Below, piece by piece: positions 9,251 to 12,049 of a stretch of DNA of 22,619 bases (position 1 is its first letter; every line of letters begins with the position of its first letter). The notes under the pieces are model-generated. The model had not been told where the DNA came from. It worked only from the letters and a program-made list of their open reading frames with translations, and did not search any database. A program made the position numbers and the translations under genes. The DNA comes from a virus. The stretch is taken from IMG/VR virus record IMGVR_UViG_3300038548_000053, positions 1 to 22,619 of that record; one strand, given 5' to 3'.

Positions 9251-11050
9251 ATGGCCGGACCATTTAGCTCAACAGGAAACCAAGCAGCTGAGATACCGGG
9301 TGTGCAATTGCAGGGTGGGTTTGCGCCTACCCCCGGCATTGCCGATGCTCTTAATGCAGTAGCTAGCGTAGCTATTCCAGCTATCAAGAAGAACCACATT
9401 GATAACTTGCAAGAGGATATCACAGGTAAGACGGATTCGATTAAGACTGCTTTGCTTGCGCGTGCTAACCCAGCACTTTCACAGTCACTGTTTACAGAGG
9501 AAGCGTTAGCCAACCCTGCAACAGCAGCAGCCTTTGCACAGTTCAATGACATTGCCAATGCAGTTAAGCAAGGTAAGTTACCGGGCCAGTTTGCATTAGA
9601 ACGCTTGTCAGTTATTCAGAATGATGCCATTGCAGCATCTCCTGAGTTCGAGCAAGAGATTAGGGCAGCTATGATATCAGCTACAGGACAAGACCCTGAG
9701 AAACGCTTGTTTGCTAGCTTATTATCTACTCAGGCAGAGGGCTTATCAGCTGAAGAGAAGTTCCAGCAGAAGCTTAGTAACGATGCTCGTCGAGTGGGTC
9801 TAACAGTACCAGCATTTATTGAGGCTAACAACTCAATACTAATGGCACAGACAGAGAACGCAGAATTCACTCGCTCTAAGGTTAATGGCACAATCAATCT
9901 GCGTAAAGTGGCAGGAGCTGTTAACAACCGTTCTGGTTTAATCATGATGGATATTATGCAATCAGCCAGAGGACAGATGATAGCAACAGGAGGCTTAACT
10001 CCCGAGTTTACTACCCAACTAACACAACAGATGGGTGCAAGTATTGCAGCAGCTCAGGCTCAGATTATAGCTACAGCAGGAGATGCAGTGGACCCTACAG
10101 AATTGGCAGCAGCAGTAGCTCCCTTAGTAGCGTTACAGGGACAGATAGAATCCATGATTGAGGATGGTTCTTTGCAGGCTATGGCAGGTAACACTGTTGC
10201 ACTGAACAAGATGTTAATACTTGGTGAGGCTATGGAGTTTAAAGACTTCGCAGTAGCTCATGCTCTAGGTGGAGAACGAGGCTTCCTTGATGTAATGAAG
10301 TTCTTTGAGAAGGCTACCAATCCTCAGACAAGAGCGTTACTTGACAAGCTTAACCCAAGAGCAGCGGGGGCAACACTTCTTGGTGAGATTACACAAGGTG
10401 TTCAGCTAGTCCCAACGCCTATGGGAGTAGTTAAACAATATGGTCAGTTGGGTACAGGTACAGCTGGACTAGGAACTAATGTAGTTAATGAGCGTATCAT
10501 TGCAGCCAATGTAGCAGTACAAACAGTCGGTGGTAAAGAAGAAGCGCATACAGCAGCCATGTCTGACCTTGAAGCAGTTAGCTCTGAACATGCGTGGGTA
10601 GCATTTGATAGTCGTAAGACTTTGGCAGCAGCTATGCAGAGCAAGGCATTACAAGCCAAGCTCATACCATTACAGGCTAACCAGACAGCAGGGTTATCAA
10701 GTGAGTACTTTGGCCTAACAACCCTACCGGGATTTAGAGCAGACAAGTTTGAGATTATTGGAGGTCAGTTAACTTACAAGTTAGAGGGACCGCAAGGTCA
10801 AGGTCAACGTCTTGAGATAGACAATGAAGCACCAGCATTTGTTAAACGATTCAACCGGGCTAATAAGATTTCATCTATGTATTCTGGAGTAGGCATACTG
10901 CCTGCCTCACGCTACACAAATGTGCAGGATTATCTGAAGGTAATACAGGAAGCAGTACCAGCAACAATTAATGGGGAGAGAGCAGATGCACCTAAGACTG
11001 GTCCTCGTCGCATTATTCGTGGCCCTGATGGCAAGCTCAGTTTCGAGTAG
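9251..11050 (+). CDS. Second large internal virion protein
   Basis: 599 aa; ATG at 9251 behind AAGGAG with a 7-nt spacer, 2 bp after the giant gene. Predicted largely helical, rich in Ala, Gln and Asn, without Cys-rich, signal-peptide or obvious catalytic motifs. It begins with a Gly/Pro-rich start (MAGPFSSTGNQAAEIPGVQL), typical of virion proteins whose N-terminus is exposed for packing. Operon position between the giant ejection protein and the lysozyme gene suggests a partner of the ejection complex, playing the part of gp15 or gp16 by order. No confident homology; the assignment rests on context. Confidence 0.6.
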   Translation: MAGPFSSTGNQAAEIPGVQLQGGFAPTPGIADALNAVASVAIPAIKKNHIDNLQEDITGKTDSIKTALLARANPALSQSLFTEEALANPATAAAFAQFNDIANAVKQGKLPGQFALERLSVIQNDAIAASPEFEQEIRAAMISATGQDPEKRLFASLLSTQAEGLSAEEKFQQKLSNDARRVGLTVPAFIEANNSILMAQTENAEFTRSKVNGTINLRKVAGAVNNRSGLIMMDIMQSARGQMIATGGLTPEFTTQLTQQMGASIAAAQAQIIATAGDAVDPTELAAAVAPLVALQGQIESMIEDGSLQAMAGNTVALNKMLILGEAMEFKDFAVAHALGGERGFLDVMKFFEKATNPQTRALLDKLNPRAAGATLLGEITQGVQLVPTPMGVVKQYGQLGTGTAGLGTNVVNERIIAANVAVQTVGGKEEAHTAAMSDLEAVSSEHAWVAFDSRKTLAAAMQSKALQAKLIPLQANQTAGLSSEYFGLTTLPGFRADKFEIIGGQLTYKLEGPQGQGQRLEIDNEAPAFVKRFNRANKISSMYSGVGILPASRYTNVQDYLKVIQEAVPATINGERADAPKTGPRRIIRGPDGKLSFE

Positions 11051-11060
11051 AGGATATAAC

Positions 11061-11732
11061 ATGTCACAAGTAATAGAATTTGAAGGACAGGAGTATGACT
11101 TCCCTGATGATGCAACTAACGATGAGATACTGGGTATGCTTAGTACAGTTGAGCAGCCTACCCCTGCTAAGATACCTGACAAACCCCTCATAAATACACA
11201 GGGAGATGTCTCACAGCTACATGTAGAGAACAAAGCAATTAGGAAGGACGAGGGTGCAGTGAGGAATAAAGATGGGCAGCATATGTCTTACAATGACTCT
11301 AAGGGATTTGCTACTGGAGGCATAGGCCACTTGCTAACCAAGGAAGAAAAGAAAACATATCCGATAGGGACAGAGATTCCAGACGAGATTGCTAATGCAT
11401 GGTTTGCAGAGGATATGGATGAGGCAGTTGGCGGAGTAGACAGGATGTTAGAAGCTCGCAGAGTAGATTTGCCTGATGCAGCTTATGATATTTTAGTGAA
11501 CATGACCTTCAACATGGGACGTGGAGGAGTAGAAGCGTTTACTAAGATGTGGGATGCACTGGAGGTAGGAGACTATGAGACAGCAGCCGCAGAGATGGAA
11601 GACTCCGACTGGTTTGATGAGGTGGGTAATAGAGCAGTAAGGTTAATCAATCGTATGCTAGCTATCCCCTCTGCTAGACCAAAGGAAGAAGAAGAAGAAG
11701 AAGAAGAAGAAGAACCAGAAGACAAAATTTAG
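11061..11732 (+). CDS. GH24 (T4-type) lysozyme, probable virion-associated peptidoglycan hydrolase or endolysin
   Basis: 223 aa; ATG at 11061 (GAGG, 7-nt spacer). A longer frame from 10971 would overlap the previous gene and has no SD. Residues ~3-28 carry a small domain of the form 'I-F-G-Q-Y-x-F-P-D-D-A-T-x-E-I-x-x-L' that I associate with N-termini of phage virion proteins. The GH24 domain follows: catalytic Glu64 (KDEG), Asp79 (YNDSKG) and Thr85 in FATGGIGHLL, matching T4 lysozyme E11/D20/T26. There is a 6-residue insertion between Glu and Asp. Helical lobe motifs (LVNMTFNMG, NRAVRLINRM) are intact. No signal or SAR segment, so it needs a holin or delivery in the virion. The C-terminus is a poly-Glu tract. 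Last gene of the late operon. Confidence 0.85.
   Translation: MSQVIEFEGQEYDFPDDATNDEILGMLSTVEQPTPAKIPDKPLINTQGDVSQLHVENKAIRKDEGAVRNKDGQHMSYNDSKGFATGGIGHLLTKEEKKTYPIGTEIPDEIANAWFAEDMDEAVGGVDRMLEARRVDLPDAAYDILVNMTFNMGRGGVEAFTKMWDALEVGDYETAAAEMEDSDWFDEVGNRAVRLINRMLAIPSARPKEEEEEEEEEEPEDKI
11685..11714 (+). repeat. (GAA)10 trinucleotide tract encoding poly-Glu
   Basis: Ten perfect GAA codons in a row near the 3' end of the lysozyme gene give ten glutamates, followed by PEDKI. Perfect short tandem repeats are prone to slippage; changes of whole units would stay in frame and change only the acidic tail length. Confidence 0.9.
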
Positions 11733-11736
11733 ACAC

Positions 11737-11768
11737 AAAAAAGCCCGCGACTAAGCGGGCTATCTTTT
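11737..11768. terminator. Bidirectional intrinsic terminator between convergent operons
   Basis: A 7-bp perfect GC-rich stem, AGCCCGC (11742-11748) and GCGGGCT (11755-11761), with a 6-nt loop. Read leftward (- strand) the stem is followed directly by TTTTTTG, a strong terminator for the early operon. Read rightward it is followed by ATCTTTT, a weaker U-tract for the late operon. It fills the 34-bp gap between the lysozyme stop (11732) and the end of the last - strand ORF (11767). Confidence 0.9.
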
Positions 11769-11862
11769 ACATTGTAGTTAGTACGGCATTCACTTTAAAG
11801 GCTATGCCTAATACTATGACTGCAACTACCATCGCAGCTAGAAACTGCTCACCTCTACTCAT
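11767..11862 (-). CDS. 31-aa single-helix membrane peptide
   Basis: Reads MSRGEQFLAAMVVAVIVLGI followed by AFKVNAVLTTM. Residues ~7-22 form one hydrophobic helix flanked by charged residues (R3, E5; K23), the layout of a miniature inner-membrane protein. The start ATG overlaps the stop of the upstream mini-ORF by ATGA, and GGAG lies 11 nt upstream. It is the last gene before the terminator. Length and topology are compatible with a pinholin-like or regulatory peptide, but no family is recognised. Confidence 0.5.
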   Translation of the reverse strand: MSRGEQFLAAMVVAVIVLGIAFKVNAVLTTM

Positions 11863-11942
11863 GATGCTGCAAACTCCGCTATCAATACTATCACTCCGCA
11901 CACTGCTAATGTGCCTAAGAACAATCCACCTAATACTTTCAT
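11859..11942 (-). CDS. 27-aa single-helix membrane peptide
   Basis: MKVLGGLFLGTLAVCGVIVL followed by IAEFAAS: one basic residue, then ~20 hydrophobic residues including one Cys, then an acidic residue. It overlaps both its upstream and downstream neighbours by ATGA, so three mini-ORFs are chained by stop-start overlaps. The Cys at residue 15 with the preceding LAVC could suggest a lipobox (L-A-V-C), hence alternatively a tiny lipoprotein signal sequence such as an outer spanin remnant; there is almost nothing after it, so this is weak. Confidence 0.45.
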   Translation of the reverse strand: MKVLGGLFLGTLAVCGVIVLIAEFAAS

Positions 11943-12049
11943 GATGTCACCACCGTATAAATTAAGTTACCTATCAAGGCGACAGCAGCTACTGCATAGC
12001 AATACCCAATCACCTCACCTATATCCATAGTAAACTTATCTCGTTTCAT
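11939..12049 (-). CDS. 36-aa single-helix membrane peptide
   Basis: A charged N-terminus (MKRDKFTMDIGE) is followed by one hydrophobic helix (VIGYCYAVAAVALIGNLIYT, residues 13-32). ATG at 12049 follows AGAGGA with an 8-nt spacer, a strong ribosome binding site. The stop overlaps the next start by ATGA. First of three consecutive mini membrane ORFs at the end of the operon. Confidence 0.55.
   Translation of the reverse strand: MKRDKFTMDIGEVIGYCYAVAAVALIGNLIYTVVTS

Follow-up and report, generated by a model that had tools for sequence, protein, structure and literature searches.

A chain of three single-helix ORFs closing the early block of a Zobellviridae-like phage: tentative candidates for holin accessory proteins

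Gene content of the locus

The locus described here lies in a virus record of 22,619 nucleotides (IMG/VR record IMGVR_UViG_3300038548_000053, analysed over its whole length and called the window below), and consists of three very short ORFs chained on the minus strand, each with one predicted membrane helix (Table 1). Late genes of the window occupy the plus strand and early and replication genes the minus strand, and the early block that carries the trio includes DNA polymerase, exonuclease and PhoH-like genes. The DNA polymerase is 43–47% identical, and the giant internal virion protein 33–38% identical, to those of the Vibrio phages 1.015.O, 1.070.O and VpV262. Judged by these identities the window is a Zobellviridae-like podovirus, with the VpV262-type polymerase and internal virion protein as well as the convergent layout; in annotated relatives the two blocks likewise converge near the equivalent gene. 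The 22.6-kb record is probably a fragment.

A first-pass annotation had described three chained single-helix ORFs at positions 11767–12049, closing the early operon and lying across a terminator from a lysozyme gene; their place, lengths, ATGA joints and neighbours were all borne out. The overlaps lie at 11939–11942 (ORF1/ORF2) and 11859–11862 (ORF2/ORF3), and a third, at 12046–12049, joins ORF1 to a basic ORF of 40 aa upstream. The SD of ORF1, which had been called strong, is only fair (AGAGGA, 8 nt spacing); ORF2 is preceded by the SD-like sequence GGTGGTGA, and ORF3 has a weak SD, GGAG, with a spacing of 11 nt. A second in-frame ATG of ORF1, at codon 8, is without SD, and ORF3 has an alternative GTG start at 11901 that would give 44 aa. 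Kyte–Doolittle 18-mer maxima are 2.03, 2.52 and 2.67 for ORF1, ORF2 and ORF3, respectively, and the best 19-mers on an approximate position-weighted insertion scale score about +0.3 (marginal), −2.1 and −2.5. The N-terminus of ORF1 has three positive charges and is predicted to lie inside. No internal duplication was detected within the trio, pairwise scores being no better than those of shuffles. An ORF on the opposite strand (11804–11944) was set aside because the terminator precedes it.

The chain runs further upstream, from the trio through the 40-aa basic ORF to a gene for an exported protein of 110 aa. A competing basic ORF of the same length lies in another frame; both are open, with codon scores near zero, so that the score cannot choose between them. 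In phage 1.015.O the corresponding region holds a basic ORF of 55 aa. The exported protein belongs to a family that matched nothing in Pfam or PHROG and whose genes lie towards the end of the early block. Its other members are 16–25% identical to that of the window, and two cysteines (window residues 41 and 106) are invariant throughout the ten sequences aligned. In one member, from contig L125, the signal resembles a lipobox (LASC). An AlphaFold2 model of the 110-aa protein (pLDDT 81) has confident helices in the mature part and gave no informative match to PDB or viral structures. A T4 RI-like anti-holin was considered as a possible identity, and T4 RI was absent among the few structural candidates returned by the search with this model.

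The lysozyme across the terminator matches Pfam PF00959 (1.2e-12) and T4 lysozyme structures (1.6e-13), and its residues E64, D79 and T85, which we take to be the T4 triad, are invariant across eight aligned sequences. Its start was taken as the ATG at 11061, behind an AGAGGA SD, rather than position 10971, so that the protein probably lacks the hydrophobic N-terminal stretch which the longer ORF would add. PHROG matches are to both endolysin-type and virion-lysozyme kinds, and the protein could be a virion lysozyme rather than a lysis enzyme. A run of about ten glutamates, absent from the other aligned relatives, stands just before the end of the gene at 11732.

Table 1. Features of the locus in the window, and related features in other phages and contigs (prefixed by contig).
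Feature	Coordinates	Strand	Remarks
T4-type lysozyme	11061-11732	+	last gene of late block, convergent to trio
Intrinsic terminator, bidirectional	11742-11761		between convergent operons, after ORF3
ORF3	11862-11767	-	ATG start, 31 aa, MSRGEQFLAAMVVAVIVLGIAFKVNAVLTTM; one predicted helix
ORF2	11942-11859	-	ATG start, 27 aa, MKVLGGLFLGTLAVCGVIVLIAEFAAS; one predicted helix
ORF1	12049-11939	-	ATG start, 36 aa, MKRDKFTMDIGEVIGYCYAVAAVALIGNLIYTVVTS; one predicted helix, about residues 12-34
Competing 40-aa basic ORF	12158-12036	-	ATG start, other frame
40-aa basic ORF	12168-12046	-	GTG start; GTGA overlap with exported-protein gene, ATGA overlap with ORF1
Exported or anchored protein, 110 aa	12165-12497	-	two-cysteine family, found at equivalent junction in relatives
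Probable holin, 89 aa	13889-14158	-	phrog_7045 holin, 2.5e-12
Exported-protein family members	L119:1663-2061, L121:7044-7445, L122:1425-1826, L123:7193-7561, L124:7176-7550, L125:7005-7370, L120:7093-7503, L126:7773-8090, L129:7349-7780		
Rz-like spanin candidates	L119:2227-2732, L121:7611-8038, L122:1992-2587		TTG start, unannotated
Single-helix ORF, 26 aa	L124:8264-8344	-	end of operon
Single-helix ORF, 33 aa	L048:8888-8989	-	TTGA joint to exported-protein gene
Basic ORF, 55 aa (1.015.O)	L005:25824-25991		region corresponding to 40-aa basic ORF
ORFB (VpV262)	L006:44422-44820	-	annotated as holin-like

Coding potential of the trio

Proteins shorter than 40 aa are usually omitted from phage annotation. 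Chains of three ORFs of the kind seen here (ATG-started, 20–50 aa, joined by exact ATGA overlaps, each with a Kyte–Doolittle 18-residue mean of at least 1.9) were counted elsewhere, and none was found on either strand of 3.57 Mb of other phage loci, a figure in which partly overlapping loci cause some sequence to be counted more than once, nor in any of 400 minus strands of the window simulated with a first-order model. A coding score, the codon log-odds trained on the larger genes of the window, gave 0.16, 0.28 and 0.27 bits per codon for ORF1, ORF2 and ORF3, and from −0.28 to 0.00 for the other minus-strand frames. For same-sized ORFs that are out of frame the median is −0.07 bits per codon, and the 90th and 95th percentiles are 0.15 and 0.22; all three ORFs thus score above 90% of spurious ORFs and two of them above 95%, with the limitation that the score partly reflects hydrophobic amino acids and not codon choice, its synonymous part alone being uninformative. 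Because no such chain occurs in the other loci or the simulations, and because the codon scores favour these three frames, the trio probably represents real genes.

On the other hand, the three frames might be open by chance in a 3′ part of the early transcript that is not translated, a reading to which the absence of relatives and of a known product, the weak SD of ORF3 and the marginal helix of ORF1 lend something. It is improbable in view of the chance statistics and coding scores, and the trio region shows no sign of an RNA element, having no Rfam match and ordinary folding (z −0.94). That the three ORFs are both translated and inserted in the membrane is, as a joint claim, likely in our judgement. 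They belong to a kind that is already known, the phage small membrane proteins, and are orphan members of it.

Homologues and the junction in relatives

Patterns built from all three ORFs found no homologue of the trio in IMG/VR, and neither tblastn of ORF1 nor blastn of the trio region gave anything meaningful in INPHARED. Tblastn against the relatives fetched up to that point gave nothing convincing, and no spanin in PHROG matched the trio. Relatives of the phage were gathered by IMG/VR profile scans with the internal virion protein, polymerase, lysozyme and HNH endonuclease (for the last, a single-sequence search returned none and the profile search succeeded). These scans yielded about a dozen contigs with the layout of the window, approximately 43–54% identical in the compared proteins, and no recognisable trio is present among them. 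The phage group was not found in bacterial genome contigs.

Three of the relatives, L119, L121 and L122, share one order of genes at the junction: the exported two-cysteine protein, a small protein, an Rz-like spanin, a mini ORF and a small cysteine-containing protein. The spanin candidate (109–165 aa) has an N-terminal helix followed by a coiled coil, through which its length varies, and matches phrog_1026 in L122 (1.5e-4) and in L119 (0.049). The mini ORF encodes 31–33 aa with one helix and has ATGA joints both to the spanin gene and to the next gene. It can be aligned in all three contigs, where its frame and a GVKH tail are kept across an in-frame two-codon indel. Its dN/dS is 0.29–0.65, and amino-acid changes are fewer than in neutral simulation in one of the three pairs (P 0.005; 0.14 and 0.17 in the others).

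Other relatives have junction ORFs of similar size, namely the single-helix ORFs of L124 and L048 (Table 1), and L120 has a 66-aa ORF with a helix. The L124 and L048 ORFs score against each other well above shuffles and are perhaps a second mini-ORF family; among the other junction helix pairs low p-values are few, from many comparisons and uncorrected. No mini-helix ORF is present at the junction in L123, L125, L129 or the Vibrio phages. Enrichment of mini-helix ORFs at the junction has p 0.004 with the window included, 0.08 without the window, and 0.25 without the window and homologues; it is thus not significant unless the window is counted, and the recurrence is suggestive only. In VpV262, ORFB was annotated as holin-like on account of its two helices, yet the profile that it matches is that of an Rz-like spanin (phrog_1804, 6.9e-5).

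The probable holin of the early block

It had been supposed that the window has no conventional holin/endolysin pair; as regards the holin, this was wrong. The probable holin in Table 1 aligns over residues 7–88 to positions 4–88 of the 94-position phrog_7045 profile, contains a hydrophobic segment, and shares about 34–43% identity with phage proteins that include annotated holins. Its gene is on the same strand and in the same block as the trio, 1.8 kb upstream of it, and the relatives L123 and L126 also have a phrog_7045 holin in the equivalent block.

Possible functions of the trio

The reading that we prefer, at a probability of roughly 0.3 and thus tentatively, is that the three ORFs encode inner-membrane microproteins that tune the holin, as accessory proteins or anti-holins. 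It is preferred because lysis genes surround the site in relatives and because there is a precedent in Salmonella phage BSPM4, whose ORF52, a 64-aa protein with one helix and early-like expression, binds and inhibits the holin (PMC11657625). The three microproteins would be made by translational coupling from the genes that close the early block and would insert in the inner membrane with the N-terminus inside, the charge pattern being clear only for ORF1 and ORF2. Their helices might then pack against those of the holin and so set when it fires; as early products they could, like BSPM4 ORF52, also hold lysis back in a superinfected cell.

An anti-holin or holin accessory should be embedded in the membrane by at least one helix and should have a cognate holin in the same phage. 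Hydrophobicity predicts such a helix in each ORF, marginally in ORF1, and the phrog_7045 protein supplies the holin, in the trio's own block and with a T4-type lysozyme convergent across the terminator. Against this reading, the holin gene is not adjacent to the trio, no homologue of the trio was found, some relatives that share the holin or the layout (L123, L125, L129 and the Vibrio phages) are without a mini-helix ORF, the lysozyme could be of the virion type, and the junction of the window is without the spanin of L119, L121 and L122. The first-pass annotation had also proposed a possible role in lysis; the argument from an absent holin falls away, and the proposal gains indirect support from the Rz-like spanin and conserved mini ORF at the junction of those three relatives.

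Nearly as likely as a holin accessory role is that the trio has no part in lysis and acts early in superinfection exclusion or takeover of the host membrane, by binding either proteins of the host inner membrane (in transporter, secretion, respiratory or division complexes) or the route of incoming DNA. The trio closes a block that encodes DNA polymerase, exonuclease and PhoH-like proteins and not a dedicated lysis cassette; its upstream neighbour is an exported two-cysteine protein conserved at the site, as an envelope-exclusion cluster might have; and fast turnover of sequence at the site suits exclusion genes. However, no homology to known exclusion proteins was found, and the Rz-like spanin at the very same site in three relatives points to lysis.

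Less probable than either is that the peptides are translated but largely neutral or newly arisen, short hydrophobic products of coupling and a U-rich message that are tolerated and not selected. Short ORFs come and go easily, no homologue of the trio occurs in any relative and the synonymous component of the coding score tells nothing either way, all of which agree with neutrality; three consecutive helices with precise ATGA joints are, however, far beyond chance, and it is rare for 280 nt that could be spared to persist in a phage operon, where genes are densely packed. There is also a precedent for inert peptides in the leviviruses, where 178 of the 293 tested candidates, all of them with a predicted TMD, left plating unaffected (PMC7693330).

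We give only slight credence to a bolder reading, in which the three helices would be subunits of one hetero-oligomeric membrane device, held at a fixed ratio by translational coupling and serving to time lysis or sense superinfection in a new way; the junction would then be a place at which unrelated microproteins of one helix replace one another within this phage group. Least likely of all is autonomous lysis by pinholin-like or single-gene-lysis-like proteins that need no holin to depolarise or collapse the envelope. Size and single helix fit the leviviral criteria (at least 25 codons, SD and TMD), but most leviviral candidates that fit those criteria were inactive (PMC7693330). Such proteins would also be redundant beside holin and lysozyme genes; and SAR endolysins are the partners of pinholins, whereas the lysozyme read from its likely start at 11061 has no N-terminal helix.

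Some specific identities were rejected. A spanin of the Rz/Rz1 type is excluded by length, as 27–36 aa leave no room for a periplasmic domain (an i-spanin has a helix and a periplasmic coiled coil), and an o-spanin by the cysteines of ORF1 and ORF2, which are without a lipobox (Y or V at −1). The S21 68-type pinholin has a SAR endolysin as partner and two helices, of which the first can leave the membrane; in the window, by contrast, each ORF of the trio has one helix and the lysozyme, read from its likely start, lacks an N-terminal one.

Comparison with known systems

If the trio is made, the early/late junction of Zobellviridae-like phages would be a recurrent place for tiny, little-conserved membrane proteins. 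The view that the window has no holin is corrected in any case. The closest positional parallel, the mini ORF of L119, L121 and L122, resembles the trio in its place between early block and lysozyme, its single helix and its ATGA coupling on both sides; unlike the trio it is one ORF, follows an Rz-like spanin, has a basic tail that suggests the opposite topology, and has no detectable sequence similarity to the trio. The Sgl proteins of ssRNA phages are alike in size range, in having one helix and in their little conserved sequence, but they act alone, are often embedded in other genes, and belong to phages without holin or endolysin (PMC7693330). LysF1b of the F1 cluster of mycobacteriophages is likewise a single-helix membrane protein, and it times lysis together with a holin-like protein of two helices; it differs in being N-out-C-in, in lying within the mycobacteriophage lysis cassette and in having genetic proof of function (PMC13056207). 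BSPM4 ORF52 differs from the trio in its greater length, in being one gene, in its conservation among related phages and in its experimentally shown holin binding (PMC11657625); like the trio it is small, has a single helix (N-terminal in ORF52) and no homology to characterised proteins, and is encoded outside the holin/endolysin cassette with early-like expression.
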